Shown piece after piece: positions 47,833 through 64,000 of a DNA stretch of 64,000 nucleotides; the first letter of the stretch is position 1, and each line of letters begins with the position of its first letter. The translations under genes were made by a program, and so were the position numbers. Origin of the DNA: Tessaracoccus flavescens (lineage in GTDB: Bacteria > Actinomycetota > Actinomycetes > Propionibacteriales > Propionibacteriaceae); assembly GCF_001998865.1 (NCBI RefSeq), contig NZ_CP019607.1, positions 992,001 through 1,056,000 of the forward strand, written 5' to 3'. The notes beneath the pieces were generated by a model, which saw only the letters and a list, made by a program, of their open reading frames with translations, searched no databases and was not told the DNA's origin.

Positions 47833-48500
47833 TGCACTAATCACGCTTTGACTAGGGCTTATATCGCCGGGAAGCTAGGGCTACTGTTGAGTGGGCCCCG
47901 ATCCGGACGCACTTTCGGGGCACACTCGGGGCACGCTATGCATCTTCCTGCCCCACTTTTAACGGCAGACTCATTGCAATGCCTAGCCCGTAAGCACACT
48001 CCGAATGCTTGGCGATACGAGATGCTGCGGATTTCTTGAACATCCGGTGCCCCGCCATCAGCTGGGCCTGGGAGACGCCCGGCCCGAAGAGCCGCGAGTT
48101 TCGGGAGCACCTGTCTGACGGGTCGTGACTCACCCACCATGCAACCGTTGGTGTGGACATCCCATCAGCCGCTGACGTGCGCGGGCGCGTCGACCTCCAG
48201 GCCGATGGTCATGTCCTCGCTCTCATGCCCATCTTTGACTGCCCGCGGCGATGGTCGGCGCCGCCAGACGACGATGTGCCGGTTCCCGAGGTGGAACCAC
48301 AACTCGTGGATTCTGTGCGACGTAGCGCCCGTTGGACTACCAATCTCCGGGTCGCATCGCGGGGTGTGAGACGAAAGGCCTTGTCAGAGGCTTTGGGGTG
48401 CCGACGGGCGATCTCCTTGGTAGTCCACATGGCGCCACGCATCGCCCGTGAACCCTCGACAATGCCCGCGTGGGAACGCAAGCCGTTCGTACGGGTTCTG
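47833..48500. other. Gene-poor interval after tRNA-Ser
   Basis: About 670 bp of visibly lower GC than the flanking genes, without a supported gene. A minus-strand stretch around 47970-48090 reads 'GVSQAQLMAGHRMFKKSAASRIAK', vaguely helix-turn-helix-like, but it has no clear start or family match. It may be debris of an element integrated at the tRNA. No repeat of the tRNA 3' end was found by eye. Confidence 0.45.
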
Positions 48501-48502
48501 TA

Positions 48503-48526
48503 CCCACCGGGACACCCCCCGGTGGG
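48503..48526 (+). promoter_or_regulatory. Dyad operator with adjacent -10-like box upstream of the GH13 gene
   Basis: CCCACCGGG-acaccc-CCCGGTGGG has perfect 9-bp arms and is followed directly by GATAATGG, a plausible -10 element. It lies about 40 bp before the GTG start of the glycoside phosphorylase-like gene. It probably binds a regulator not encoded nearby. Confidence 0.5.
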
Positions 48527-48564
48527 ATAATGGGCGCGGTTCACCAGACGACGAAGGAGTCCTC

Positions 48565-51144
48565 GTGCCCTTGTTCCCCGCGCTCACCGATCCCAGCTCG
48601 ATCCCCACCGGGGACATGCCGGGGGACAAGGTGCACATCACCGATTGGCATCTGGCGGCTGCGGCCACGCTGTACCCCGCCCTGCGCGAGCAGCTCGACC
48701 CCGTCCTGGCCGCGGGACGCGCCGTGGTGGCCGTCTACGGCGGCTCGGGCGTGGGCAAATCCGAGCTGGGATCGCTGCTCGGCCACGCGCTCAACACGGA
48801 CGGCATCGGCGCCTACATCCTGTCGGGCGACAACTACCCGCGCCGGATCCCCTCCGTCAACGACGCCGAACGCCTGCGCGTCTTCCGCCATGCGGGCGCC
48901 CGCGGGCTGGTGGACGCCGGGGCCTACGACGCGTCCGTCCGGAACGCCCTCTCCTCCCTCCAGGCTGCGGGGACGGACGCCGACCCGGCGGCCGCAGCCG
49001 AGCACCCTTGGCTCCCGACCTACCTCGGCGCGGGCTCCACGGCGCTCGCCGCGTACCTCGGGACACCGAACGAGATCGACTTCGACGAGGTGAATGCGAT
49101 CATCGCCGCCTTCAAGGGCGGTGCCGACACCCTGACCCTCAAGCGCATGGGGCGCACCGAGGCCGACCAGTGGTATGACCAGGTCGACGTCTCGGGCACC
49201 CGCGTGCTCGTCATCGAGTGGACCCACGGCAACAGCGACTTCGTCGAGGGCGTGGACGTGCCCATCCTGCTCAACAGCACCCCGGCGCAGACGCTGGCGC
49301 ACCGCCGCGCTCGCGCCCGTGACGGGGCGGTCGACAGTCCCTTCACGACGCTCGTCTTGGGATTGGAGCAGGCCAAGCTGGACGCGCAGGCACCCAAGGC
49401 GTCCCTGATCCTGTCGAAAGAGGGCGAACTGCTCACCTACGACGCCTACCTGCAGGCGATGGGGCGCCACCTCCCCCGCGATGGCGTCATGCTGAACGCC
49501 TACCCCGACAGCCTCGACGGCACCCTGGCAGGCCTGGCGGCGTTCGTGCAGCGTCCCGAGGTCGCCGGCGCGTTCAGGTCGCTGTACCTGCTCCCCAGCG
49601 TGTTCAACAGCGACCTCGACCGCGGCTTCAGCGTGATCGACTACGGGCTGAACGACCTTCTGGCGAAGCCCGCCGACCTCGAGGCGCTGGCCGCTGCGGG
49701 GCTCGACCTGAAGTTCGACTTCATCCTCAACCACGCCTCGGTGCTGTCGCCCCAGTTCCAAGACATCCTGGCCCGCGGCGAGAGGTCGCCCTACAACGAC
49801 TTCTTCATCGACTGGAACGCCTTCTGGGCCGGTCACGGCGAGATGACGCCGGAGGGCTACATCCAGCCACGCGCGGACCTGATCGAGCACATGTTCTTCC
49901 GCAAGCCGGGCCTGCCGCTGTTGATGGTGCGTCTGCCCGACGGGTCGGAGAAGCCGTTCTGGAACACCTTCTACCAGGAGGTCCGCTACCCCCGCGTGGA
50001 CGCCCAGGACCTGATGGCGGCCGGCCTGCAGTACGCCTCGGCCGACGAGTTGGCCACCCGGGTCAACGCCACCATCGCGGACGGCGGACGCCCCGGGAAT
50101 GCTGACTTCACCGGCTTCGAGGCGTGGCGGGACGCCGTGGTCGACCTGGTGGAGTCGCGGCGCACCTACCTGGGACAGATGGACCTCAACATCAAGTCGC
50201 ACCTGGTGTGGACGTTCTACGCCAACACCCTGGCCAGGCTCGCGGGCTACGGCGCCGAAATCGTCCGGCTGGACGCTTTCGCCTACGCCCCCAAGGAGCC
50301 AGGCGAAAAGAACTTCCTGAACGACCCCGGTACGTGGGATCTGCTCGACCAGGTGAAGGCGTTGGCCGACCGGCACGGGGTGAAGCTGCTGCCCGAGATC
50401 CACGCCCGCTACGAGGAGGGCATCCACGAGACGATTGCGGCCAAGGGGTTCCTCACCTACGACTTCTTCTTGCCCGGGCTGCTGATCCACGCGCTCGAGA
50501 CGCACTCCGCCGAGCGCCTGCTCGCGTGGATCGGCGACATCCAGGCCAAGGGCATCAAGACGGTGTCGATGCTGGGCTGCCACGACGGCATTCCGCTGCT
50601 CGACCTCAAGGGCCTGCTCAGCGACGACGAGATCGAGTCGGTGATCGCCACGGTGCGCGGACGCGGCGGCTACGTGAAGGATCTCCACGGCCAGAAGGCG
50701 ACCTACTATCAGGTCAACGCCACGTACTACAGCGCTCTGGGCTGCGACGACGCATCGATGCTGCTGGCCCGGGCGATCCACCTGTTCATGCCGGGCAAGC
50801 CGCAGGTGTGGTACCTCGACCTCTTCGCCGGCGAGAACAACCTGGCCGCCGTCGAGCGTGCGGGGTCGGGCGGGCACAAGGAGATCAACCGCACCAACCT
50901 GTCGGCCGACGACCTCGAAGCCGGCCTCGCGAGGCCCGTTGTGCAGCGCCAGATCGACCTGCTGCGGTTCCGCAACACCCACCCGGCGTTCGGGTGGGAT
51001 GCCGAGCTGACGGCGTCCGGAGAAGGCTCGATGTTGATGTTGGAGTGGTCGCGCGAGGGCCACACCGCACGGTTGGAGGCCGACCTCGCGACCCGGGCGT
51101 TCCGCATCACCGCGGACGGCACGGACCTCGACAGCCAAGGCTGA
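48565..51144 (+). CDS. GH13 (sucrose phosphorylase-like, GH13_18 type) enzyme with N-terminal P-loop kinase-like domain
   Basis: An 859-aa two-domain protein starting at GTG 48565 (GAAGGAG upstream). Residues ~1-300 form a uridine kinase-like NTPase: P-loop 'VYGGSGVGKSELG' (59-67), 'ILSGDNYPRR' and 'GTRVLVIEWTHGN'. Residues ~305-859 form a GH13 barrel with nucleophile Asp570 ('VRLDAFAYAPKEPGEKNF'), acid/base Glu611 ('LLPEIHARYEEG') and Asp674 ('GCHDGIPLLD'). The spacing resembles sucrose phosphorylases (GH13_18), which release glucose 1-phosphate from sucrose or glucosylglycerate-like substrates. The coupling to a kinase-like domain suggests phosphorylated sugar handling; the true substrate is unknown. 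Confidence 0.8.
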   Translation: MPLFPALTDPSSIPTGDMPGDKVHITDWHLAAAATLYPALREQLDPVLAAGRAVVAVYGGSGVGKSELGSLLGHALNTDGIGAYILSGDNYPRRIPSVNDAERLRVFRHAGARGLVDAGAYDASVRNALSSLQAAGTDADPAAAAEHPWLPTYLGAGSTALAAYLGTPNEIDFDEVNAIIAAFKGGADTLTLKRMGRTEADQWYDQVDVSGTRVLVIEWTHGNSDFVEGVDVPILLNSTPAQTLAHRRARARDGAVDSPFTTLVLGLEQAKLDAQAPKASLILSKEGELLTYDAYLQAMGRHLPRDGVMLNAYPDSLDGTLAGLAAFVQRPEVAGAFRSLYLLPSVFNSDLDRGFSVIDYGLNDLLAKPADLEALAAAGLDLKFDFILNHASVLSPQFQDILARGERSPYNDFFIDWNAFWAGHGEMTPEGYIQPRADLIEHMFFRKPGLPLLMVRLPDGSEKPFWNTFYQEVRYPRVDAQDLMAAGLQYASADELATRVNATIADGGRPGNADFTGFEAWRDAVVDLVESRRTYLGQMDLNIKSHLVWTFYANTLARLAGYGAEIVRLDAFAYAPKEPGEKNFLNDPGTWDLLDQVKALADRHGVKLLPEIHARYEEGIHETIAAKGFLTYDFFLPGLLIHALETHSAERLLAWIGDIQAKGIKTVSMLGCHDGIPLLDLKGLLSDDEIESVIATVRGRGGYVKDLHGQKATYYQVNATYYSALGCDDASMLLARAIHLFMPGKPQVWYLDLFAGENNLAAVERAGSGGHKEINRTNLSADDLEAGLARPVVQRQIDLLRFRNTHPAFGWDAELTASGEGSMLMLEWSREGHTARLEADLATRAFRITADGTDLDSQG

Positions 51145-51179
51145 CCCTGCGTTCGGCGCCCCCGGCCGGCGGGCAGGGT
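51144..51179. terminator. Weak hairpin between convergent GH13 and uspA-like genes
   Basis: ACCCTGC / GCAGGGT arms (7 bp) surround a GC-rich loop containing CCGGCCGG. Located between the two stop codons; no T-tract. Confidence 0.4.
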
Positions 51180-51194
51180 GCGCCGTCGCAGCGC

Positions 51195-51701
51195 TCAGAC
51201 GTCCTCGGGCACCTCGATCTCGGTCACGTCACCCCACGCCGCCGGGGGACGCACCACCAGGACCTCGCACGGGGCTTCACGCACGACGGCGGACGCGACC
51301 GTCCCGAGCAGGCGTCCGGCGAGACTGGTGTCTCGGATCGCCCCGATCACGATGAGGTCCGCCTCGTGCTGCTGCGCGGCTCTCAGGAGGGCGGAGGCAG
51401 CCTCGCCCTCCACCAGCAGCGACGCCTTGACCTGCGCGCCCAGGCCGGAGGCCGTGGATGTCGCGGTCGCCAACGCGTTGCTGGCCGCTTCGCGTCCCAA
51501 CACAACGGAGGTCCGGGTATCACCGAGGGTGTTCGTCGCCTTCGCACCCTCGCGCATCGTCATGCCCGAATAGGCGCAGACGATGACGAGGTCGGCCTCC
51601 TCGGCAGCGGCCAAGAACGAGGCCCTCGCGACGGTCGGGTCTGACAAGGCAGAGCCGTCGGTGCCGACGACGATGCATCCGTACGGAGTCATGCGTGCCA
51701 T
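51195..51701 (-). CDS. Universal stress protein (UspA family)
   Basis: A 168-aa Usp-domain protein: 'GCIVVGTDGSALSDPTVARASF' at the N-terminus and an ATP-binding region 'IVIGAIRDTSLAGRLLGTVASAVV', an approximation of the G-x2-G-x9-G-[ST] motif. The first Gly pair is altered, so nucleotide binding is uncertain. It follows the MFS gene by one base and is the last gene of a three-gene minus-strand operon (SRPBCC, MFS, Usp). The specific role is not evident. Confidence 0.85.
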   Translation of the reverse strand: MARMTPYGCIVVGTDGSALSDPTVARASFLAAAEEADLVIVCAYSGMTMREGAKATNTLGDTRTSVVLGREAASNALATATSTASGLGAQVKASLLVEGEAASALLRAAQQHEADLIVIGAIRDTSLAGRLLGTVASAVVREAPCEVLVVRPPAAWGDVTEIEVPEDV

Positions 51702-51702
51702 C

Positions 51703-53100
51703 TCAGGCTCCCTTCGTGGTGACGGTCTCGTCGCCAGAGCCGACCGGCTCGATGTCGCGCACGATCGGGGGCTCCTTGACCCAGAGCATGACCAAGCCGG
51801 CGATGCCCAGCAGGATGCCGGCGGCCATGATCGCGTTGTTGGGGTTGTCCCCCAGCAGGTTCTTGTAGATCGCGCCGAACGTCAGCGTCTGGATGAGCAT
51901 CGGGATGACGATCATCATGTTGACGATGCCCATGTAGACGCCGTAGCGGGTCGAGGGAACCATGCGCACGATCATGATGTAGGGCACGCCCATGATGGAC
52001 GCCCACGCGATGCCCAGGCCCACGATCGCGACGACCTTAAGCGGCAGGGTCGGCATTTGCGGGAACAAGAGCAGACCCACCGTGGCGCACCACAGGGCGA
52101 TGGCGTGCACCCACTTCGCGCCCAGGCGGCGGGCCAGGGCAACCAGCCCGAACGCGACACAGAAGGTCACGATGTTGTAGGCACCGTTGATGACGCCTGT
52201 GTTCGCGACGGCGAGCTGGTAGCCCTCGGAGTGGGCGTCCGTCGTGCCGTAGAGCGACTGGGACACCGACAGCGACACGTATTGCCAATAGATGTTCATG
52301 GCGTACCACTGGAAGAGGTACACCAACGCCAGCTTCCGCATCTCGACCGGCATGTCGACGATGGCGTCCTTGATCTCGGCGATGAAGTGGCCGGGGCCAC
52401 CCTTGCTGGCGCGGAGCTCGGCGAGTTCTTTCTCCGTCGGCTCGAGCTCGGGCGTTGACAGCACCGAAATGAGCACCGTGGCGATCGAGCAGACCGAGCC
52501 GAGGAGGAACGCCGGGTAGACCCACAGCGGGATGCCGACGGACTGACCCAGGCCGAAGACGCCCTGGAAGAACATCAGGCTCAAGTTGGCCAGCGTGATC
52601 CCCAGGCCGGTGAAGAACGACTGGGCAAGGAAGCCCTTGCCGAGTTGGGCCGGGGGGAGCCGGTCGGCGATGAACGCGCGGTAGGGCTCCATCGCGGTGT
52701 TGTTGGAGGCGTCCAGGAGCCACAGCAGGAGAACCGCCATCCAGACCGCCCACACGAACGGGAACAGGGCCAGGCAGATCGCGCAGCCGATGGCACCGAT
52801 GAGGAAGAAGGGGCGTCGGCGCCCGCGGAAGAAGCCCTTCTCCACCCATGTTCGGTCTGAGAGGGCCCCGATGATGGGTTGGATGAGCAGGCCCGTGACC
52901 GGACCGGCCAGGTTGAGCAGCGGCAATTGGTCGTGTGACGCGCCCAGGAACGTGTAGATCGGATTGATGGCCGTCTGCTGCATGCCGAAGCTGTACTGGA
53001 TGCCGAAGAACCCGAGGTTCATCAGGAGGATCTGCGGCATGGTCATGATGGGCTTCGTGCGGACGACCGCCGACGTCGTCGGCGCTCCTGCGGTATTCAT
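51703..53100 (-). CDS. MFS transporter of the sucrose/SLC45 (GPH-like) type
   Basis: A 465-aa protein with about 12 membrane segments. 'MNLGFFGIQYSFGMQQTAINPIYTFLGAS' in TM1, 'GLLIQPIIGALSDRTW' and 'GRRRPFFLIGAIGCAICL' are hallmark motifs of plant-SUC/SLC45-type sugar:H+ symporters (RxGRRRPF, LSDR). Bacterial members carry sucrose, maltose or related alpha-glucosides. ATG 53100 overlaps the SRPBCC stop (ATGA) and has GGAGGACAGGC upstream. With the adjacent GH13 phosphorylase-like enzyme it suggests uptake plus phosphorolysis of an alpha-glucoside. Confidence 0.85.
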   Translation of the reverse strand: MNTAGAPTTSAVVRTKPIMTMPQILLMNLGFFGIQYSFGMQQTAINPIYTFLGASHDQLPLLNLAGPVTGLLIQPIIGALSDRTWVEKGFFRGRRRPFFLIGAIGCAICLALFPFVWAVWMAVLLLWLLDASNNTAMEPYRAFIADRLPPAQLGKGFLAQSFFTGLGITLANLSLMFFQGVFGLGQSVGIPLWVYPAFLLGSVCSIATVLISVLSTPELEPTEKELAELRASKGGPGHFIAEIKDAIVDMPVEMRKLALVYLFQWYAMNIYWQYVSLSVSQSLYGTTDAHSEGYQLAVANTGVINGAYNIVTFCVAFGLVALARRLGAKWVHAIALWCATVGLLLFPQMPTLPLKVVAIVGLGIAWASIMGVPYIMIVRMVPSTRYGVYMGIVNMMIVIPMLIQTLTFGAIYKNLLGDNPNNAIMAAGILLGIAGLVMLWVKEPPIVRDIEPVGSGDETVTTKGA

Positions 53101-53561
53101 GCCTGTCCTCCATCCAGGTAGGTGCCCAAGCGGGCCAATTCCTTCTCCCAGCCGGCGGCGTGATACTGCGCCACGGCCGGGTCGTACGGCCCCTGGACGA
53201 TGCGCACGAGCGTGCTGTCGCCGCCCATGGCGGTGAACTCGACGCGCAGTTCGAGGGACTCGTTCGGGTCGATGCCGGAGTCGCCCGTGATGCGCTGACG
53301 CGCGACGAACACGTCCGGGTCGAAGTACTCGGTGAAGACGGCGTCCGTGGTCACGCGGACGCTCGGGTCGTCGTCGCGCACCTTCACGTGATGGTGCTTG
53401 CCGCCGGTCCGCAGGTCCGACGTGACGCTCTCCCGCTCGACGTGCCACCCAGGGCTGCCCCGCCACTGGGACATCTCCTCGGGTGCGGTCCAGGCGCGAA
53501 ACACGCGGGGCCGCGGGTGGGCGAACTCCTGCTCGACCACGACGATGACATTTGCTGACAT
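53097..53561 (-). CDS. SRPBCC/AHSA1-type ligand-binding domain protein
   Basis: A 154-aa START-like fold protein: 'VEQEFAHPRPRVFRAWTAPEEMSQW' at the N-terminus and the C-terminal helix 'YHAAGWEKELARLGTYLDG' are standard for the AHSA1 family. These proteins bind hydrophobic ligands or act as chaperone co-factors. ATG 53561 has a GGAGGT Shine-Dalgarno; the longer frame upstream is not coding-like. First gene of the SRPBCC-MFS-Usp operon, with promoter expected in 53562-53700. Its role beside a sugar transporter is unclear. Confidence 0.85.
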   Translation of the reverse strand: MSANVIVVVEQEFAHPRPRVFRAWTAPEEMSQWRGSPGWHVERESVTSDLRTGGKHHHVKVRDDDPSVRVTTDAVFTEYFDPDVFVARQRITGDSGIDPNESLELRVEFTAMGGDSTLVRIVQGPYDPAVAQYHAAGWEKELARLGTYLDGGQA

Positions 53562-54032
53562 GCGACCTCCAAGTGGGGGTTGACTCGGCGCTCGGGGGCC
53601 ACCCGAGGCGGTTGCGCAACCCGCGTTGGCTGCCGGCACCATCATGGCACCCCATCCGGAGCCTGTGCAACGGTCAGGAACGACGATTCTCACCAGGGCG
53701 TCGAGAGTCGCTCATCATCGGCAGCGTCCTCGTGGTCGCCTCCCTCGTCCTCATTCGGGATGCCGTCGTGCTGGGCCGCGATCTGCGCCGTGAGCCGCTG
53801 GACTCGCGTTCGAGCCCGCCCCCAGCCGCGGGCTCCTCTCCCCCGGCACCGTGTTCGGCTTGGCTGCCGACGTCGGGACGCGCCCCGCAAACGCTCCTCG
53901 AAAGTGAATCTGCGCCCCCTCCAGCAGGGGCGAATCACGTTTAGAGGTGCATCTGGCTCGCCTCGGCCACGGCGTCCAGCCGCATCTGGTCGTACTGGCC
54001 GTTCACGATCGTCACAACCCGACTTGGCTCAT
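53562..54032. other. Interval between the sugar operon and the IS remnant
   Basis: About 470 bp without a complete gene. A plus-strand stretch at 53706-53790 reads as one hydrophobic helix ('LIIGSVLVVASLVLIRDAVVLG') but has no start, stop or context that makes it credible; it could be a gene fragment. The minus-strand tail 53941-54030 is probably the 3' flank of the transposase remnant. Confidence 0.4.
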
Positions 54033-54986
54033 TTAGTGTCGCCTGCGGGCTTGGTGGATCGCGTCGAGCCAGGCTTGGGCGTCGTCGGGCAGGGGGTCCT
54101 CGGCGGTGACGATGGTGTCGCCGGCTTGGATGTCGATGGTGCGGTGGCGACGCAGCGTCTTGACGAGGGCCTTGATGCTGACGCCGGTGGTGCTCTCGAC
54201 CCATCGGGCGACGGCGAGGGCCGCGAACACGATGGTGAGGTGGGCGTCGATCGAGCCCTTCAGGTGGTGGTAGACCGGCCGGGCCTTCAGGTCCGACTTG
54301 GACATCCGGAAGGACTTCTCGACCTGCCACAGCTGGTGGTAGGCCCCGATCACGTACTCCGGGGTCGGGTTGGCCAGGTTCGTGATGTAGCCCTTCCAGC
54401 CCGCCAGGGTGCGGGCCTTGGCCTCCAGTTCCCGGTTCACCGACTTCTGCGCGCCGGTGAGGGTGATGAACCGGTTCCGCTTCACCGGCGCCTTCCCCGC
54501 GACCGCGCGTTCGGCCTTGCCGACCTGCTCACCGATGCCGCGCAGCGTGCGCCGGGCCCGATCAGCCCGGTACTGGTAGTAGATCGTTTCCTTCACCTGC
54601 TGGCCGGCCGGACCCCGTGCCCACGGCTGGGTCAGGATCAGCCCGTCAGGCGGCTGCTCACCGGGGTGGGTGTCCATCCAGTGGCGCACGACGTAGGGAA
54701 TGTCGGGGATCTTCTGACCCACGATGAACCGCAGCCCCGCCCCGGACAGGGCGCGCAGGTTCCCATCCGACAGCATGCCCGCGTCGGCGACCACGGTCAC
54801 CTCGGGGAGCTGATGGGCGGCCTGGAACGCCTGGATCGACGGGATGATCGTGGTGGTCTCGGCGCGATTGCCCTCGAACGCTTCGACCATCAGCGGGAAC
54901 CCGCGCGCGTCGGTCAACAGGCCGATGGTGATCTGCGGCTCCAGGCGGCGTTCCTTGCTGTTATGCCGACGTCGGCATAACTCCAA
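54033..54986 (-). pseudogene. IS1634-like transposase, N-terminally truncated
   Basis: About 308 residues of an IS4-superfamily (IS1634-type) transposase. 'ITIGLLTDARGFPLMVEAFEGNRAETTTI' begins the catalytic core, 'VVADAGMLSDGNLRAL' holds a catalytic Asp, and 'YHQLWQVEKSFRMSKSDLKARPVYH' is the E-motif (Y-x2-R/E-K). Full-length members have ~480-560 aa; the N-terminal third with the first Asp is missing. The frame stops making sense at about 54962, exactly where a palindrome (54961-54980) begins. The transposase was therefore cut by insertion of the neighbouring recombinase element. Confidence 0.82.
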
Positions 54987-55080
54987 TTATGCCGAGGTCT
55001 CGCTTATGCCGACGTCCGGGTGGGCGGAGCGGTGTTTGTGCTGGTCAGCGGTCCGGGTGGGGGTCGCTGACGCGGCATAA
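54961..55080. repeat. Palindrome array at the end of a tyrosine-recombinase element
   Basis: A perfect 20-bp palindrome TTATGCCGACGTCGGCATAA lies at 54961-54980. Direct partial copies TTATGCCGAGGTC (54987-54999) and TTATGCCGACGTC (55004-55016) follow, and an inverted copy CGCGGCATAA lies at 55071-55080. The array lies between the truncated transposase and the 3' end of the recombinase gene. Such clusters of half-sites at an element end are what the linked recombinase would bind and cut. Confidence 0.75.
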
Positions 55081-55097
55081 CCCTCGCGGTGGGGGCG

Positions 55098-56090
55098 TCA
55101 CAGTTGTTCGAGGAAGGCGATGAGGTCGTCCGCGGGACGGTAACGTCCGGGCTTAGTGCCGGACGCGGGGATTCGGGCGAGGGCCCTCAGCTTGATGGTC
55201 ATGTCCGCGTGCAGGTAGATGTGCGTGGTCGTTGCGCTTGCGTGACCGAGCCACAAGGCGATCACCGACGTGTCGACACCGGCCGCGAGCAGCGTCATCG
55301 CTGCGGTGTGCCGCAGCGTGTGCGGTGTCACATGCTTGGACGCGATCGATGGGCAGACAAGGGCCGCAGTCACCGCGTGTTTGGTGACGAGCCGTTGGAC
55401 TGCATCGGCAGATAGCCGGGTTCCGCGGCGGGTCGGGAAAACCGGTCCGCTGGGCCCGGTTTGTGGCAGCCATTCATGCAGGACGGCCGCAGTCTGCCGG
55501 GTCAAGGGGGTGACGCGCTCCTTCCGGCCCTTGCCCGTGGTGTGCACGGATGCGCCAGGCATGATGGCGGTGACGTCCTGGATGGTGAGCCCGGTCAACT
55601 CGGACAGCCGAAGACCGGTCTGCACGGCGGTAAGGAGCAGAGCGTGGTCACGGCGCCCATACCAAGTCGTGCGATCCGGCGCCGCGAGCAGGGCATCCGT
55701 TTCGGCGGCCGTCAGGAAGGACACCATGGCCCAGTCATGACGTCGTTGCGGGATCGCGAGCACCTGACTGGCAGTGTGAGCACGCTCCGGGACGAGCGGG
55801 AGCGCGAAACGGTAGAAGGAGTGGATCGCGGCCAGGCGGGCGTTACGGGTCGCGGTGCTGTTGTGCCGGTCGCAGTCGAGGTGGGTGAGGAACTCGCCGA
55901 CGGTGACGGCGTCCAGGTCGTCGATCGTGAGCCGTGAGGGGGGCCTCTTCGTCTTCTGCGCGGCGAACAGCAGCAGGAGACGGATCGTGTCCCTGTACGC
56001 GGTGACCGTCTGTGGGCTGGCGCCCAACTGCCGACCCAGGCGCTCGGTGAAGAACCGTTGCAGCAGGAACGTCAGGGTCGGCTCACTCAT
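55098..56090 (-). CDS. Tyrosine recombinase/integrase (RIT-type element, last gene)
   Basis: A 330-aa tyrosine recombinase. The N-terminal SAM-like core-binding domain ('LQRFFTERLGRQLGASPQTVTAYRDTIRLLL') precedes the catalytic domain with all active residues: Arg in 'TGLRLSELTGL', Lys in 'GKGRKERVTPL', H-x-x-R in 'HTLRHTAAM', His in 'LGHAS' and Tyr in 'HIYLHAD'. ATG 56090 overlaps the upstream recombinase-fusion stop by ATGA. Tandem, overlapping recombinase genes are the hallmark of recombinase-in-trio (RIT) elements; two of three are recognisable here, this one complete. Confidence 0.88.
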   Translation of the reverse strand: MSEPTLTFLLQRFFTERLGRQLGASPQTVTAYRDTIRLLLLFAAQKTKRPPSRLTIDDLDAVTVGEFLTHLDCDRHNSTATRNARLAAIHSFYRFALPLVPERAHTASQVLAIPQRRHDWAMVSFLTAAETDALLAAPDRTTWYGRRDHALLLTAVQTGLRLSELTGLTIQDVTAIMPGASVHTTGKGRKERVTPLTRQTAAVLHEWLPQTGPSGPVFPTRRGTRLSADAVQRLVTKHAVTAALVCPSIASKHVTPHTLRHTAAMTLLAAGVDTSVIALWLGHASATTTHIYLHADMTIKLRALARIPASGTKPGRYRPADDLIAFLEQL

Positions 56091-57637
56091 GAGGCCGGTC
56101 CTTCGCTCGGAGTGACCTGAGGGGCGTCGAGCCGGCCAGCGGCCAGCGCGAGCAGTTCGGGCACCGCGTGCAGGTACCAGTAGGTCGAGGCCGGGTCGAC
56201 GTGGCCCAGCCACGTGGACAGCAGGGGAAGGCGTCCTTGCACGTCATGGCCGTCGCGGTACCAGTCGAGCATGGTGGTCACCGTGTAGGTGTGCCTCAGG
56301 TCATGGAGCCGGGGTGGCCTGTGGCCGGGGCGGATGGTGATCCCGGCTGCGGCCACGACCTGTTTGAAGGTGACGCCCAGACGGTCCGGGTCGAGCGCTG
56401 CCCGTCGGCGATTCACGAAGAAGGCCGGGCAGGCCCGCACTGTTCCTCCGACCCAGTCGTGGCGGACCTGCAGGTAGTGGCCCAGGACCGTCGTGGTGGT
56501 CGGGTGGAGGAACACAAGCCTGGACTTGCCGAACTTGGTGTCCAGAACCTGCACCACACCGTTGGCCAGGTCCACGTCGCCGACGGTCAGGTGGCAGGCC
56601 TCCCCGGGCCGCAGCCCTGTGGCGGCCAGCAGACCGATCAGCGTTCGCCAGGTCACCGCCCGGAACCGGGGGGACAAGCGATCGGTTCCGCCCAGGAGCG
56701 CGAGGACCTCAGCGTCGGTGAACACGTCGACGAGCGCCCGGTCAGTGCGCTTCTTCTTGCCGGCGAACTCGTCGAACGCCACCACATCCCAATAGCCGAC
56801 GAGACCGATGCGTCCGTTGGCGTTGTTGACGAAGAGCTTGGGGACGGTGACCTCGCCCCCCGAGATCAGCATCCCGTGGGGCGAGAACTCGGAGAAGATG
56901 TGGGACTTGCCGGTGCCCTTGGGGCCGAGCTCGACCAAGTTGTAGTTCCGTTCGACGAACGGGATGAGGCGCACGAGCTGGAAGAACTTCCCGCGCCTGC
57001 TGAACATCTCGGGGTTGAAGCCGATGGACTGCATGAGCAGGTCGATCCACTCGTCGGTGGTGAACCCGCGTCGGGACTCCAGGTACTGGTCGACGTCGAA
57101 TCGCGAGAGTTGGATGGGTTTGATGGAGCCCAGTATCCAGGGCACGACCCGCTGGTCCTCGGTGTGGAAGTACTCGATGTCGCAGATGCACCACACCCCG
57201 CCTACCAGCAGCTTGGGGTGGGCTGTGATGATTGGCGAGTCGACGATGACGCCCTTGATGCCGAGGTTGGCGAACTCGGCCTCGTAGACGTCCGCCTTCT
57301 CGTTGAGCGTGACCGCGACTTTGTCGATGATCCGGTGGCGGCCACGTTCCTTGATCTTGGACTTGACCAGCTCGGACTCGCTGCGGTGGACGTAGTGCTC
57401 GGCGAGGATCTGGCGGACGGTCTCGATGCCGGCCTGGATGGTGGCTTCGTCGTCCGACGCGGCGTACTGGCCCAGCAGATACTCCAGGACGTAGGACGGC
57501 ACGATGGCGTTGCCCTTGACAGCCTTGACCAGATCTTTGCGCACGACAACACCACCGAACAGGAGGTTGATCTTGTAGTCCAGGTCGCTCTGTGGCGGCT
57601 CGCCGGCGTTGTGGGGCTCGTTCTGGGTTTCGCTCAT
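56087..57637 (-). CDS. brxL: BrxL N-terminal half fused in frame to a tyrosine recombinase catalytic domain
   Basis: A 516-aa hybrid ORF beginning ATG 57637, 11 bp after pglZ with a GAGGAGAGG Shine-Dalgarno. Residues 1-~303 are BREX BrxL, the AAA+/Lon-like protein: 'LDYKINLLFGGVVVRKDLVKAVKG', 'VELGPKGTGKSHIFSEFSP' (Walker A, Lys244) and 'VVAFDEFAGKKKR' (Walker B, Asp289-Glu290). Right after 'ALVDV' (about 56725) it becomes the catalytic part of a tyrosine recombinase: 'TGLRPGEACHLTVGDVDLANG', 'KFGKSRLVFLHP', 'HDLRHTYTV', 'LGHVDPASTYWYLHAVPE'. BrxL's remaining AAA+ and C-terminal Lon-like parts, and the recombinase N-terminal domain, are absent. Canonical BrxL function is probably lost. Confidence 0.85.
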   Translation of the reverse strand: MSETQNEPHNAGEPPQSDLDYKINLLFGGVVVRKDLVKAVKGNAIVPSYVLEYLLGQYAASDDEATIQAGIETVRQILAEHYVHRSESELVKSKIKERGRHRIIDKVAVTLNEKADVYEAEFANLGIKGVIVDSPIITAHPKLLVGGVWCICDIEYFHTEDQRVVPWILGSIKPIQLSRFDVDQYLESRRGFTTDEWIDLLMQSIGFNPEMFSRRGKFFQLVRLIPFVERNYNLVELGPKGTGKSHIFSEFSPHGMLISGGEVTVPKLFVNNANGRIGLVGYWDVVAFDEFAGKKKRTDRALVDVFTDAEVLALLGGTDRLSPRFRAVTWRTLIGLLAATGLRPGEACHLTVGDVDLANGVVQVLDTKFGKSRLVFLHPTTTTVLGHYLQVRHDWVGGTVRACPAFFVNRRRAALDPDRLGVTFKQVVAAAGITIRPGHRPPRLHDLRHTYTVTTMLDWYRDGHDVQGRLPLLSTWLGHVDPASTYWYLHAVPELLALAAGRLDAPQVTPSEGPAS

Positions 57638-57648
57638 CTCGCCTCTCC

Positions 57649-60144
57649 TCAGAAGTCGAAGTCTGACGTGAAGGAACGCTTCAGCGTGTAGATGGCCTTC
57701 TCGTAGACGCGCCACTGATTTGTGTTGGGGATCCGCTCCTCCAACCGGAATTCGACAGCCCGGTTGTTGTAATCGTTGGCGTCTTGACTGAGCAGCATCC
57801 GCGGACTCTGGTACCGGTCACGCGTGTCGGTCGAGATCTCGTCGAAGGTCAGGTTAACGAGGTTCGAGAGCAGCGTTTCGCCGGCGTAGAGCCCCGCTCG
57901 GAGGGAGCGCGGCTGGACCTTGTCGCTGACCGGTTCTGACTGGAACAAGCGGACGACGACTTGCCCGGTGGTGATCTTGTCCGACTCAGGCATGATCTTG
58001 ACATTCACCGGCCGAACGTCGCTCCTGCGCTTCTTGTTGACCGCCAGCACTGGGACGACGATCTCCTGCACGGTCGCCCCACCATGAACGAAGCGCGATC
58101 CGCTGCCGGCCAGCCGTAGGCGGTGGATCGACTTGGGAATCTGAACTTCCAGCGCGCTGTCCAGCCCGAGCTGGGCCGCCTTGAAGGTGGTGAAGGCGGG
58201 ATCGACCTTGAGGCCTGTGCCCAGCACGAAGCGCTTGTTGACGTGCTTGAGGTCGTCGCCCTGGGGCTTGGTCGACAGGAAGAAGGCGTCGGCCAGCGCC
58301 TCGTCCTGGAACAGGAATCCGTGGTCGGCCGTGATGAAGATGTTGGTGGCGTTGGCACTGGCCAGCTTCTTCACCAGGTCGACGAGGTCGCGGAGCGTGT
58401 CCTCCACTGCCTCGAACACCTGGCGCTCGGTGCCGAGCTTGTCTCCGGTGGCGTCGATCCGGTTGTGATAGACGTACAGGACCCGGTTGGCCTTATAGAG
58501 CTCGCGCCGCTCGTCGGCGGTGAGGGCCTGGAAGTCCTCGGCCTGGATCGCCGACCCACCCACCGCCTCTAGGATCTTGCTCCGGAGCGTGGTGTTGTTG
58601 GTGGGTTGGTCGTCGGCCAGCACGGTCTTGGCGTCGGCCGAGTGCTTGAGCGTCGAGTGCGGCAACAGGGCGGCCATACCGAGCTGGGTGTAGCTGGGCA
58701 GCACACCCAGGACCGCCTCCAGGGTCGCGTCGAAGCGATCCTCCTGCCTGATCAGCGAGCCGAGTTCATCGGCCACCTCGTAGCGCATGGCGTCGGAGAT
58801 GATGACGACGGCCTTCTTGTCGCCGTCGCGGACGAGCGGTTCGACGTAACGGACGTAGAAGTCGGTCTGGGAGCGCAGTGCAGTTGAGCGCCACGTCTCG
58901 ACCTGGTCGACCTGCTGCTGCCAGGCGTTGCCCAGCTCGTAGACGTACTTGTTGGTGTAGCGCTTCTCGACCTGCTCACGCAGCGCTTCGAGGGGCTTGG
59001 GGTACTCGGCTGTCCGGGCAGCGACGATGAACTGGCGGTAGAGCTGGTCGATGCGGAACCACTCGCGTCGGTAGCGCTCCAGTCCGTTGTCGAACGACTG
59101 CATGGCCAGATCCAGCGCGGCCAACTCGCCCAACAGCTCCGAAGCACTCGCCACAGCCGTGTAGAGCCGCCGATAGCCGTCGATCCAGACGCTGCTCTGC
59201 CGTGCCCGGACCACCTCGGCAACCTCGCGCGGCGCGACCGTCTGCTCGGCCACCGCGCGCGCCAGGTCACTGATGATCTTCTGGTCGGTCTCCTCGAACA
59301 GGTCGACACTGATCAGGTCACGAAAGCTCGCGTTCTCGATCTTCGACTTGAAGTCCAAGTCCCTGGCGGCCCGCTTGGCGAGCGTAGACATGGCTTCCTG
59401 GCTGCGCCGGTCGTTTCGCAGGCTCGCGAAATCGAGTTGGATGTTCTGCAGCCCGCCCGGGCGGTCCGACTTGAAGCCCTCCAGGGCTCGCTGGAAGATC
59501 CACAACACCAGGTCGTCCATGCTCGGCGTGGGCGATTCGTAGCCGTAGATGCGCGCCACGCCCTGCCAGTAGAAGCTGTCGAGCCCGTAGTCGACGAGGG
59601 CGTCGTACTTGGCGTGCGATCCCTTGGCGTTCTCGGTCAGGAGGGTGCGTGTGATCTCCAGCAGGCTGTGCTCCCGCTGGCCGAGCACCACGGCGCTGAT
59701 CTTGGCGCGCAGCCGAGCCGCGTCGTCCTCCGAGCTGAGCAGTGCCTTCAGGCTCTGGACACGCTTGGCGGCGTTGAAGAACTTCTCGTGCGCCTGCACC
59801 ACCTCGTCGATGCCCTTGCCCACCAGCCCGAGATCCTGGGCAACGAGCGCGGTACGGTCAGCCGTGAAGACCCCGTAGGCCAGCTCCAGGTCGAGCAGCC
59901 AATCCCCGATGCCGCTCGGCACCTGACCTGAGCGATAGACGAGGAACTTGCCCTCCGGCTCCTCGTGCAACAACCTGTTCTTCACGGCGAACTCATCGTT
60001 AGCAACACGAATCGTGTGGATCCCCGGAAGGTCGAGGCCGTCGAGATCCGCCGAGTACTGGCCTTCCGGGTCATGCCAGAACACCACGCGGCGGCTGTCA
60101 AACCAGCGCAGTAGGTGCGGACGGACGGCAGCGGCGTCACTCAT
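57649..60144 (-). CDS. pglZ: BREX phosphatase-domain protein PglZ
   Basis: An 831-aa PglZ (BREX type 1). The N-terminal ~400 residues are helical. An alkaline-phosphatase-like domain follows with 'AVVIISDAMRYEVADELGSL' (metal Asp451, D-A-M-R-Y) and 'IFITADHGFLFQDEAL' (Asp607-His608). The C-terminus is beta-rich and ends 'YEKAIYTLKRSFTSDFDF', normal for the family. It is required for BREX defence and host methylation; its catalytic role is unresolved. ATG 60144 overlaps the pglX stop by 8 bp and the stop lies 11 bp before brxL, so the operon is tightly packed. The frame is intact. Confidence 0.93.
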   Translation of the reverse strand: MSDAAAVRPHLLRWFDSRRVVFWHDPEGQYSADLDGLDLPGIHTIRVANDEFAVKNRLLHEEPEGKFLVYRSGQVPSGIGDWLLDLELAYGVFTADRTALVAQDLGLVGKGIDEVVQAHEKFFNAAKRVQSLKALLSSEDDAARLRAKISAVVLGQREHSLLEITRTLLTENAKGSHAKYDALVDYGLDSFYWQGVARIYGYESPTPSMDDLVLWIFQRALEGFKSDRPGGLQNIQLDFASLRNDRRSQEAMSTLAKRAARDLDFKSKIENASFRDLISVDLFEETDQKIISDLARAVAEQTVAPREVAEVVRARQSSVWIDGYRRLYTAVASASELLGELAALDLAMQSFDNGLERYRREWFRIDQLYRQFIVAARTAEYPKPLEALREQVEKRYTNKYVYELGNAWQQQVDQVETWRSTALRSQTDFYVRYVEPLVRDGDKKAVVIISDAMRYEVADELGSLIRQEDRFDATLEAVLGVLPSYTQLGMAALLPHSTLKHSADAKTVLADDQPTNNTTLRSKILEAVGGSAIQAEDFQALTADERRELYKANRVLYVYHNRIDATGDKLGTERQVFEAVEDTLRDLVDLVKKLASANATNIFITADHGFLFQDEALADAFFLSTKPQGDDLKHVNKRFVLGTGLKVDPAFTTFKAAQLGLDSALEVQIPKSIHRLRLAGSGSRFVHGGATVQEIVVPVLAVNKKRRSDVRPVNVKIMPESDKITTGQVVVRLFQSEPVSDKVQPRSLRAGLYAGETLLSNLVNLTFDEISTDTRDRYQSPRMLLSQDANDYNNRAVEFRLEERIPNTNQWRVYEKAIYTLKRSFTSDFDF

Positions 60145-63100
60145 CGCTGGCCTCAAGTCCGGGGATCTTCTTCAGGGCGGTACCGAACTTGGGATAGTTC
60201 GCCTTCACACCGTCGTCGAGGTCGATCGCGAGCTGCCGGGACGCCAGCGGGTACAGCACGTCGTGCTCGTACTGCTCCAGCTCCAGCAGCACCCTGCGGA
60301 GCCGATCGGCCTCCTTCTGCGCGGCCGCCTGCTGACGCGGCGTCCCACCACCAGCCGCCAGGCGCTCCTGCTGCTGCAGACTCGACGTGAGCTTGGCCGT
60401 GAACTCGCGCAGGTACTCGTTGAGCACCGTCGAGACCGTGGACGGCGTGTAGCGGTGCATGTAGATCAGGGCGTTGAACGATCCCTTGGGGCTGGAGAAC
60501 AGCCAGTAGATCGGGCGCTTCTTGTACCGCTGGACGTGGTCCTTGTAGAACGACTTCACGAAGTAGTCGCGGACGTCCCGCACGCCAAGGGACTCCGTGA
60601 CGAAACGCAGGTTCTCCTCGAAGTGCTGCTCCCCGAACGCCGCCCGAAGGAAGGTGCGGAAGCGCGCAACAATGTCGTCTTCGAACCAGTCGCCATCCAC
60701 GATAGGGATGACATTGTCCTTGTCGGGGGGGAACGTCGGGTTAGGCACGTTGGCTAGGTAGTCCTGCACCGTAGCCCCCTGGTCGGCCAGGATGAGCCCC
60801 GGCTGGTCCAGGCTGTAGCGGCCGAACATGCACCCAATGGCGTAAGAGACGAGGTCCACGGTTGCAGTGCGCGCGAAGTCCGCTTGGTCGTCGTTCAGGG
60901 CGGCCGCAGCGTCGAGGGTGATCTCGTCAATCGCGGCGCTCATGTCCTGAATCTCAGCCAGACCGTATGCGTTGAGGGCGCTTTGATTGAGTGCATGCTC
61001 CAGCTCCCTCATCCGTTCGACGTGAGAGCGGCACTCGTCTACGTACTCGCGGAACCGGTCTCGGATGCGTCCGCTAGGCAAGGGGCGCCGCACCAACGGT
61101 GAAGTCTTGAAGCCCCAGGCAGTCTCTCGCCGGTCCCAATCCTGCCACGCCAGTCGCACACACTCCTCGGCCCACGAGGCGAACTCAGCAGGCAGCGTGC
61201 TGAGGAACGGGATACTCATGACGTGTCCAAGGTTGAAGTCCAGGGTCGGCGCCAGCATCCGCATGAACCTCACAGCCACCGCACTGTTCAGCAGGCCCTG
61301 AAGCAGGCGGAGTTCATCAGCCTTGATCGGAAATCCCATTGGCCCCTTGGTGTCGAACATGAAGCCTGGCGGCACGTCACGGACGGCAAAGCCATTGCTC
61401 GAGATGCCCGACCACGTGAAGCCCTCGCGGAACGCGAAGTCGCCGTTGAAGTTGTGCGCGCGAATCCGACCAGTCTCTGCGTCGATGTTGGCCTTGACCT
61501 CAGAGCCGTCATTGAACCAGTTGACGACGTACTCGTAGTTGCCCGCCCAACGCCGATACTCACCACCCTTCACGTAGGGGAACCATCTACGAGCGGACGG
61601 CTCTTCCTGGTTGGCGTGGAAGTCGATGGCGGCTAGGGACACCTCGTGCCACCGGCGGAGGAAGGCGTCGTTATCACCAGTGATCAGACCAACCCGGGTC
61701 TCGATGTGAGCTGAGACCGGGTCGGCAGTCTCGAAGAGTTCAAAGTCTCGGGCCGCAGCCCAATAGACGAACGCTCGGCCGGGCACCCGCGCAAGGTGGC
61801 GCAGTTCGAGTACGTAGAGGTCCCGAGTGGTCCCGGCCGCCACTTCGCGGAGCTTCGCCGACTTCGTGGCCTCAGACCGACCTTCAACCAGTCGGACGAA
61901 CACCCCACGTGAGGTTCGCTTGGCAACCTGCCGACAGATCACGAAAGCAGTCGTACCAACTACCTCACCACCAATGCTGTCGAACGCCCGAGCGCCGAGG
62001 TGCGCCATCGAGACCACCCGAGTTCGACCGAGAATCTCTGCTCGCAGTGCCTCGAAGTAGCGCAGGTACATCCAGCTCTGCATGGTCACCATGGCGATTA
62101 GACCGCGACCAATTGCGAACTTGATGGCCCGCTCGATGAACATCGAATAGAGGTCGGTCTTGGTCGCGGGGTACGCCCTCCTCGCCCACTCGACGAAACG
62201 AGCGTTCATGTTGCCGAGACCGGCATAAGGCGGGTTGGCCACCACCACCGCGTAGCGTGGCGACAGGTACTCGGCCTGCTCGATAGCCCTCTCCGCCCAC
62301 TCGAGCGTGTCGGCCCGGAGGATGTCCCCGCCATCGTCTAGTTGGGAGATGTGTTGTTTGAGGCGGGCGGTGAGCTCGACGTCAGGCTGGATCAGCGACC
62401 CGAACATGTCGGCGTGCTCAAACTGGTTCCAGAAAGCCGCCTCAGCATGCTTATCCCCACCGCGGGTCAGCAGGAAGTCGATCTCGGCAGGGGCGAAGCG
62501 GATTGGGTCGAGGACGCAGACGTTGGGCTCGATCTGCTTGTTGAAGAACGTGCGCTGCTTGGAGCGGGCTTTCATGGTCAGGGCGAAAGCTGCGAGGGCT
62601 CCGGCGCGGGTGTCGATCTCGATGCCGTAGAGGTTGTTGGTCAGGATGAGGCCGGGGATCTCTGCTGGTGCGTAGCCCTCTTCTTCGTAGATGGCGTACA
62701 GCAGGTCGAAGGCGTAGGTCAGCATGTGCCCCGACCCGCAGGCCGGGTCGACGACCTTGAGTTCCTCGGGCCGGCTGATCTTGAGGAACTCGGTCTCCTC
62801 GTCGACTGGGGCAATGTAGTACTCCATCTGGTCGACCAGGCGGGAGTCGGGGCGGTTGAGCATCCACAGCCGACCGAGGGAGTTCTCGACGAGGTAGCGG
62901 ACGATCCAATGCGGTGTGAACAACTGGGTGGCAGCGGGGATCTCGTCGGCGCCGGCCTTCTTGTTCTGCTTGAACCCCGCGAAGACCTCGTCCTTACGCT
63001 CCGAGATGTAGAACTGGTAGAGCCAGCCGATGACCTCGACGTCCTGGCAGACGTCCTTGGTCAGCACCTTCACCGCTCGGCTCGGGACTGAGTCGTCGGC

Positions 63101-63640
63101 CAGCAGGTTGCCCGGGATGAGGAGCTCGGTGAAGTCGCCCTCGCGCTCGAACATGAACGGCATGGCCCGGTTCCAGTGGCGGCAGTAGTCCGAAAGCAGC
63201 AGAGCGTAGGCCTCGCCTTGGGCATCGGCGCTCCGTCGGGTGCCGTTGAGCAGACAGGCGACGGTTTCGCGGGTCTTGCCCGAGACCACCCCGGTGTCGA
63301 TATTGCCGCGCTTGGCTTCGGCCAAGACCTCAGGCTGTCCGGTCGCGACGCCGGCCTGCGGAGAGACGACGCCGACACTGGTATAGCCGTTGGCGTCCAT
63401 GAAGCGCAGGGCGATGATCCGGTTGAACCACGTGTAGGCGACCTTGTCGGCGACGGCAGCCCTGCCTCTGTCGCCCCCACCGCCCGCCAGGACAGCCTTC
63501 TCCAGGACTTCCACGGCCTTCGGCTGCTCCACTCGCTCGGGCGAGGCCGGAGCGAGCACGACGGCGATCCGGGCAGTGACTTCGCGGAGGAGCTCCTTGC
63601 GTGCCCAGGTGGCGAACGACTTCAGCGGTGCGGTTTCCAT
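60137..63640 (-). CDS. pglX: BREX adenine-specific DNA methyltransferase PglX
   Basis: A 1167-aa N6-adenine methyltransferase, the usual BREX-1 size. It has SAM motif I 'VVDPACGSGHMLTYAF' (from Val297) and catalytic 'VVANPPYAGLGN' (N-P-P-Y at 469-472). A long C-terminal target-recognition region runs from about residue 600. It ends with a helical segment ('LLELEQYEHDVLYPLASRQLAIDLDDGVKANYPKFG') typical of PglX. It methylates a non-palindromic hexamer on host DNA so that the BREX system can tell self from phage. Start ATG overlaps the brxC stop (TGATG). No phase-variable homopolymer tract was seen in it. Confidence 0.94.
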   Translation of the reverse strand: METAPLKSFATWARKELLREVTARIAVVLAPASPERVEQPKAVEVLEKAVLAGGGGDRGRAAVADKVAYTWFNRIIALRFMDANGYTSVGVVSPQAGVATGQPEVLAEAKRGNIDTGVVSGKTRETVACLLNGTRRSADAQGEAYALLLSDYCRHWNRAMPFMFEREGDFTELLIPGNLLADDSVPSRAVKVLTKDVCQDVEVIGWLYQFYISERKDEVFAGFKQNKKAGADEIPAATQLFTPHWIVRYLVENSLGRLWMLNRPDSRLVDQMEYYIAPVDEETEFLKISRPEELKVVDPACGSGHMLTYAFDLLYAIYEEEGYAPAEIPGLILTNNLYGIEIDTRAGALAAFALTMKARSKQRTFFNKQIEPNVCVLDPIRFAPAEIDFLLTRGGDKHAEAAFWNQFEHADMFGSLIQPDVELTARLKQHISQLDDGGDILRADTLEWAERAIEQAEYLSPRYAVVVANPPYAGLGNMNARFVEWARRAYPATKTDLYSMFIERAIKFAIGRGLIAMVTMQSWMYLRYFEALRAEILGRTRVVSMAHLGARAFDSIGGEVVGTTAFVICRQVAKRTSRGVFVRLVEGRSEATKSAKLREVAAGTTRDLYVLELRHLARVPGRAFVYWAAARDFELFETADPVSAHIETRVGLITGDNDAFLRRWHEVSLAAIDFHANQEEPSARRWFPYVKGGEYRRWAGNYEYVVNWFNDGSEVKANIDAETGRIRAHNFNGDFAFREGFTWSGISSNGFAVRDVPPGFMFDTKGPMGFPIKADELRLLQGLLNSAVAVRFMRMLAPTLDFNLGHVMSIPFLSTLPAEFASWAEECVRLAWQDWDRRETAWGFKTSPLVRRPLPSGRIRDRFREYVDECRSHVERMRELEHALNQSALNAYGLAEIQDMSAAIDEITLDAAAALNDDQADFARTATVDLVSYAIGCMFGRYSLDQPGLILADQGATVQDYLANVPNPTFPPDKDNVIPIVDGDWFEDDIVARFRTFLRAAFGEQHFEENLRFVTESLGVRDVRDYFVKSFYKDHVQRYKKRPIYWLFSSPKGSFNALIYMHRYTPSTVSTVLNEYLREFTAKLTSSLQQQERLAAGGGTPRQQAAAQKEADRLRRVLLELEQYEHDVLYPLASRQLAIDLDDGVKANYPKFGTALKKIPGLEASDE

Positions 63641-64000
63641 CAGAGAGAGATTCGCTTTCCGTTGTTGAGCGTCTTCACCAGCGCAGAGCGCAGGGCATCA
63701 AGGTAGCGGTCGATGTCCGCCTCGGTCTCCAGCACTCCCGAGACCCCTGCAGCGGAGATGCTCTTCACCGACACGGTCTGCTTCGGAGGTGACGGCGGGC
63801 CGGCTTCCGCTTCGCCGTTTCCCTTCTGCGAAGCGGCCAGTTGGTCAAGCAGGCTCGGGTACACGCTCTCCTCGAAGCCCGAGCCGGTCTCCCGGATGAG
63901 GGCGATCTGATTCTGGGTGCGGACACGGGCGATCGTCTGGTCGACGTGGCGCAGCACTCTCGTCTGGGCGTCGGGAGTTGCCTTCTCGTAGAAGGCGCTC
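63640..64000 (-). CDS. brxC: BREX ATPase BrxC, C-terminal part (window edge)
   Basis: The last ~119 residues of a protein whose start lies beyond the window. The sequence ends 'VETEADIDRYLDALRSALVKTLNNGKRISL'-like: 'SISAAGVSGVLETEADIDRYLDALRSAL' and the Lys-rich tip are typical of BrxC (PglY-like AAA+/DUF499-containing ATPase, ~1200 aa). Identity rests on this tail plus the fixed BREX-1 order brxC-pglX-pglZ-brxL. The stop overlaps the pglX start. brxA and brxB would be expected further right. Confidence 0.8.
   Translation of the reverse strand, partial: SAFYEKATPDAQTRVLRHVDQTIARVRTQNQIALIRETGSGFEESVYPSLLDQLAASQKGNGEAEAGPPSPPKQTVSVKSISAAGVSGVLETEADIDRYLDALRSALVKTLNNGKRISL

Follow-up and report, generated by a model that had tools for sequence, protein, structure and literature searches.

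Introduction

In the BREX-1 operon of Tessaracoccus flavescens, a single open reading frame begins as the BREX protein BrxL and ends as a tyrosine recombinase. Does such a frame encode a new protein in which two activities have been coupled, or is it what a deletion left behind? The original prediction for this locus, made from the DNA letters and a list of reading frames, left both possibilities standing, and its title described brxL as 'converted' into a hybrid. Here, we place both halves of the frame among their relatives at base level, in the window (the whole 64,000-nucleotide stretch of DNA that was analysed, positions 992001–1056000) and in the rest of the genome, which comprises 3.65 Mb in two contigs with an estimated completeness of 100%. 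The hybrid frame is a real but ordinary deletion junction, and its interest lies mainly in the naturally BrxL-less BREX system that it leaves. Published work is cited throughout from excerpts of the papers named.

Results

A reading frame made of BrxL and recombinase parts

The features of the locus are collected in Table 1. The hybrid frame lies on the minus strand, a point left unsaid in the original prediction. It opens with an ATG at 57637, preceded by a purine-rich, ribosome-binding-like AGGAGAGG, and its translation continues without a frameshift to a stop codon ending at 56087. Pfam matches place BrxL_N at residues 26–156, BrxL_ATPase at 168–304 and Phage_integrase at 310–491. Profile E-values reach 3.6e-113 in the BrxL half and 2.4e-17 in the integrase half, and the match of the two halves to BrxL and integrase is far above chance. 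Walker A (GPKGTGKS) occupies residues 238–245, Asp289-Glu290 fall at Walker B, and the joint in the protein reads ALVD(304)/VFTD. Beyond it, Arg343, Lys368/371, an HxxR at 445–448, His479 and Tyr486/488 could be located by sequence, a group that we take to be the recombinase catalytic set. The prediction that BrxL runs through Asp289-Glu290 and then continues, frameshift-free, as a recombinase catalytic domain is thus confirmed in all its motifs and domains.

Table 1 Features of the hybrid reading frame and its surroundings (positions in the window).
Feature	Position	Strand	Description
IS1634-family transposase, C-terminal part	54033..54961 (ORF 54033-54986)	minus	NF033559 profile positions 153-479/483
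RIT-type right end	54961..55097	minus	TTATGCCGA(C/G)GTC repeats; palindrome TTATGCCGACGTCGGCATAA at edge
int3	55098..56090	minus	330-aa tyrosine recombinase; N-terminal SAM-like and catalytic domains
int2 3' part	56087..56725	minus	Tyrosine recombinase catalytic domain; first 105 residues missing; 77% DNA identity to L047 from 56727, 211/212 aa to P0122
Hybrid ORF	56087..57637	minus	516 aa: BrxL residues 1-304 and in-frame C-terminal 212 residues of recombinase int2
Deletion junction	56726..56727	minus	Two bases (AC, minus strand) common to both parents' alignments
brxL 5' part	56726..57637	minus	304 codons: N-terminal domain and first part of AAA+ domain, Walker A and B included
pglZ	57649..60156	minus	BREX-1 phosphatase PglZ type A, 835 aa; TIGR02687 7-841/844
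pglX	60137..63640	minus	BREX-1 adenine methyltransferase, 1167 aa; NF033452 1-1209/1210
brxC 3' end	63640..64000	minus	brxC 1194 aa, L011:140-3724, mostly beyond window

As a BrxL, the frame is incomplete. Its N-terminal domain and Walker A/B motifs are recognizable (TIGR02653 / TIGR02688 / PF20442 and PF13337), but the AAA+ domain extends only over PF13337 positions 2–137 of 313. The TIGR02653 score, 379 bits, falls short of the model's cut-off of 628, and the shorter model TIGR02688 passes its own (373 versus 329) on positions 2–284 of 449. No C-terminal domain of the Lon-like or PF16565/HKD type is present, its place being occupied by the recombinase piece. PF16565 is carried by 115 of the best 120 listed BrxL matches and is missing from five. 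Type 4 BrxL is described as having no Lon-like/PF16565 C-terminal domain (PMC12839542), and this character therefore bears on type 1 only. The BrxL of close relatives probably corresponds to the 'BrxL-HKD' form named in the same survey, for which it is a candidate.

The junction at base level

Alignments of both parents meet at a single point. Four related BREX loci with long flanks (L048–L051) align from 56726 upward through pglZ, and all four stop at 56726. A locus on a contig from another genus of the family (L047), in which int1, an int2 that includes the N-terminal part, and int3 stand in a row and whose own int2 is frameshifted further on, aligns from 56727 down to 55498. The joint had been predicted near 56725; the place is right, and the DNA alignments move it by one base, to 56726/56727. 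The two-base overlap of the parental alignments looks like the trace of an illegitimate deletion. On the protein level, residues 106–317 of P0122, an intact 317-residue integrase, match hybrid residues 305–516, and 105 further residues precede them in P0122. The forecast that BrxL matches would end near residue 303 and recombinase matches start near 306 holds for the closest relatives, which end at 307–308 and start at 304–305, but not for more distant ones, whose BrxL matches end at 294–298 and whose recombinase matches start anywhere between 292 and 340.

The 912 bases of the brxL part align gaplessly and with 94–96% DNA identity to five relatives that are not truncated there, the open frames of which span 693–840 residues. 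BrxL residues 1–304 are 98% identical to four loci of the Propionibacteriaceae, the family to which Tessaracoccus belongs, and identity is 97% over residues 1–307. Taken together, base-level mapping to relatives of both halves strongly supports one of the two readings offered originally, deletion debris that stayed in frame and left BREX without BrxL.

Further BrxL sequences deserve mention in their own right. A 381-residue BrxL that is 96% identical (P0004), on a contig of 1955 bases, leaves BrxL about twelve residues past the same point and continues into unrelated sequence. Another genome of the same genus (G010) has two different brxL genes, on contigs C85 and C128, which share 97% and 83% identity, respectively, with the BrxL half of the hybrid.

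A RIT-type remnant inside an IS1634 fragment

The recombinase half of the frame belongs to a remnant that extends through int3. The int3 start codon overlaps the int2 stop (ATGA), and the int3 catalytic domain gives a near-complete Pfam match (profile positions 2–170 of 172). RIT (recombinase in trio) elements (ritA-ritB-ritC) are likewise built of neighbouring tyrosine recombinase genes, the stop codon of one overlapping the start codon of the next (PMC3414803); here, only the catalytic part of int2, the whole of int3 and the right end are left. Three adjacent, overlapping recombinase genes are accordingly not seen in the window, and three stand in a row in L047 and in a copy in the same genome. 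The recombinase catalytic residues are retained in the genes that remain, as judged from the residues themselves for the int2 part and from the Pfam match only for int3. Because its left end is missing, the remnant would probably be unable to move by itself.

Other trios occur elsewhere in the genome. The one examined (L012:953-4078) measures ~3.1 kb, with reading frames of 312, 322 and 330 residues and a left end ~170 bases before int1. It has near-identical counterparts of this length in L014 and L015, L014 being 98.5–98.6% identical to L012 and L015. In the three copies whose ends were inspected, a palindrome, TTATGCGGAATTCCGCATAA, built like TTATGCCGACGTCGGCATAA, lies on one outer edge, and it is possibly the target site of the RIT-type copies.

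Directly outside the repeat-rich right end, at 54961, begins DNA homology to 505-residue IS1634 copies, well inside their transposase frame; the RIT-type element therefore appears to sit inside an IS1634 transposase gene, as described for other RITs (PMC3414803). This mapping rests on copies in two genomes of the same genus that are only 84–85% identical to the fragment at the DNA level (85–86% at the amino-acid level). The C-terminal part is alike in the fragment and in these copies, whereas the 5' part of the gene is missing here.

The neighbouring DNA has a close counterpart in a genome assigned to a different genus within the family (G057, contamination 8), in which a whole contig of 6.6 kb is colinear with window positions 48293–54875 at 98.4% identity and ends inside the IS1634 fragment. 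This match could reflect either recent transfer or a binning error.

The lost parts and the search for a second case

If the missing half of brxL had been moved, it should be found elsewhere, and the original prediction had noted that a complete brxL elsewhere or immediately adjacent would change its reading. None was found in the genome, and the far side of the remnant holds the IS1634 fragment. PF13337 positions 138–313 are absent from the genome in a profile search that did find the remaining brxL part; beyond position 287 of TIGR02653, which also found that part, nothing in the genome exceeds 8.8 bits; and a query comprising 420 residues of that lost half, in a search that had no positive control of its own, matched nothing in the genome. 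For the IS1634 N-terminal part, own-genome relatives reach 46% only, and for the int2 N-terminal part 38–42% only. The simplest reading would be that the lost material was deleted rather than moved.

No recurrence of the fusion in independent genomes was seen among the matches listed. The BrxL-side protein search returned no spanning protein among the best 120 of 7998 scored, and the search with the recombinase part likewise none among the best 120 of 2632 matches. In named genomes, 0 of the best 80 of 467 loci span the joint, and in the 198 family genomes searched, with up to seven candidates scored per genome, no spanning match stands among those listed for the other 40 matching genomes. None of 892 matching plasmid records covers 80% of the hybrid, no plasmid matched the DNA at near-identity, and the exact 32-base junction is absent from viral contigs; the named-genome, plasmid and viral-contig searches may have left out records of this genome or of very near ones. 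A genome in the intermediate state, with the IS1634 and RIT insertions before the deletion, was not found. Among the literature matches listed, there is no report of a brxL–recombinase fusion, and the words recombinase and integrase occur nowhere in the main text of a 2026 BREX survey (PMC12839542).

Age and selection

The brxL part shows no visible decay so far. Counted over five relatives not truncated there, with L021 (87% identity) left out, the window has 2 nonsynonymous and 9 synonymous private codon changes; the relatives have 1/7, 1/5, 2/7, 1/9 and 4/11, and the window thus lies within their ranges for both classes (1–4 and 5–11, respectively). In pglZ, the corresponding counts are 10/20 for the window versus 6/33, 7/16, 10/16 and 15/44 for four relatives. 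Because the brxL part is undecayed and the int2 part is near-identical to P0122, a recent deletion would be the simplest reading, and the event looks young. A low nonsynonymous count is expected under recency and under selection on the hybrid alike; inasmuch as it also fits selection, it counts against the reading of the frame as deletion debris.

Discussion

Origin of the hybrid frame

The evidence very probably describes a locus in which IS1634 and RIT insertions were followed by a deletion that fused brxL to int2, leaving decay debris and a BREX-1 system without functional BrxL. An IS1634 copy would have entered brxL or its vicinity, and its transposase gene would then have received a RIT-type element. 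Next, brxL would have lost its second half, the IS its 5' part and int2 its N-terminal part, together with the whole of int1, in an illegitimate deletion running from within brxL into int2, with the frame remaining open across the joint by chance (one in three). We infer both which insertion came first and where the IS originally lay with respect to brxL. That the frame is open, that the joint falls at the boundary between the N-terminal and catalytic parts of int2 and that the catalytic residues are kept amounts to a mild coincidence under chance, which tells against the deletion reading.

Could selection instead have kept the fusion as a functional hybrid, in which the N-terminal DNA-binding part and partial ATPase of BrxL guide or load a recombinase domain? 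An open frame with its catalytic residues kept, a ribosome-binding-like sequence before the start codon and a brxL part without nonsynonymous excess are what this model would lead one to expect, but the fusion is a single case among the matches listed, its ATPase domain is reduced to less than half of the profile (positions 2–137 of 313) and its recombinase part is so nearly identical to an intact int2 that the event is apparently too recent for selection to have left a visible trace. With no second example among the matches listed, a cut ATPase domain and a recombinase that has lost its N-terminal part, the translated hybrid proposed earlier, in which a DNA-loading half is joined to a recombinase, found no positive support, and we regard it as highly improbable; 'converted' overstates a case in which the deletion reading holds. 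More improbable still is a just-born chimera, a recombinase that has exchanged its own N-terminal part for the DNA-binding one of BrxL and is expressed, together with int3, from a phage-defence operon.

Two other explanations concern the joint itself. The assembly might have brought together two distant places, yet the assembly shows a single brxL and no further near-identical copy of this int2 (the next best shares 43–44% identity), and therefore no repeat is apparent that might have caused a misassembly; moreover, the lost part of brxL was found nowhere else in this two-contig genome of 100% estimated completeness, and the joint has only two shared bases. An artefact is thus very unlikely. 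Alternatively, 56726 could be the left end of an element inserted by its recombinase, with the second half of brxL expected on the far side. In favour of this explanation are the sharpness of the break and the RIT-type and IS sequences immediately downstream. We nonetheless rejected the junction as an element end: int2 of L047 runs upstream into its N-terminal part and int1, the left end of the own-genome trio examined lies ~170 bases before int1, and the far side holds the IS1634 fragment, the second half of brxL not having been found in the genome. We give this explanation almost no credence.

A BREX-1 operon without BrxL

Apart from brxL, the operon is whole. brxB and brxA follow brxC outside the window, and brxA, brxB, brxC, pglX and pglZ are full length, with near-whole profile matches, whereas Pfam and TIGR profiles and the 420-residue query reveal no complete brxL. 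BrxL is reported in 76% of type 1 systems (PMC12839542), and its lack therefore does not exclude type 1. With over half of its ATPase domain (profile positions 138–313) and the whole C-terminal domain gone, the hybrid is very unlikely to act as BrxL; with the N-terminal part of the recombinase gone, it is also unlikely to act as a normal recombinase.

Two features of the surrounding operon are of separate interest. Within pglX, positions 60857–62063 have no DNA alignment with L048, L049 or L050, and both flanks align at 84–93%; in L051, the stretch that was compared ends soon after. This part of pglX is likely to be an exchanged specificity region. Upstream of the BREX operon, ~11 kb beyond brxA, lies a group II intron reverse transcriptase/maturase (L011:16062-17573).

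What would such an operon still do? The view that BrxL is essential in several BREX-1 systems agrees with some published systems and not with others. Deletion of brxL abolishes defence in E. coli, where methylation does not depend on it and is affected marginally (PMC6326788), and strongly reduces or abolishes defence in Acinetobacter (PMC10164562, PMC9122589), where a Walker B change, E280Q, suffices for the same loss (PMC10164562) and brxL is dispensable for methylation (PMC9122589). The StySA study likewise concludes that restriction requires BrxL (PMC9009780). By contrast, BREX defence of Salmonella D23580 has no need of BrxL, deletion of which can even raise defence, and methylation there proceeds without it (PMC11341690). 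Because the other five genes are full length and methylation is BrxL-independent in the systems that have been tested, our working assumption is that the locus is most likely a BREX-1 system without BrxL that still methylates host DNA. Its defence could either have gone, like that of the E. coli and Acinetobacter brxL deletions, or persist, like that of Salmonella D23580.

More broadly, the locus offers a clean natural case in which a BREX-1 system has lost BrxL by a deletion beside mobile elements, with its methylation genes whole. Such a strain could show whether BrxL-less BREX is a methylation-only system or one that still defends, a matter on which the systems described in the literature give different answers. 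The locus also carries a warning, as scans for domain fusions will take deletion junctions for new hybrids.

Compared with BREX type 1 BrxL, whose close relatives here keep the C-terminal PF16565 domain, the hybrid lacks both the rest of the AAA+ domain and that C-terminal domain. The nearest parallels are the constructed brxL deletion mutants of E. coli HS, Acinetobacter 394 and Salmonella D23580, which likewise combine five full-length BREX genes with the lack of a functional BrxL; in T. flavescens, by contrast, the loss is natural, and what remains of brxL is fused to a piece of a recombinase.
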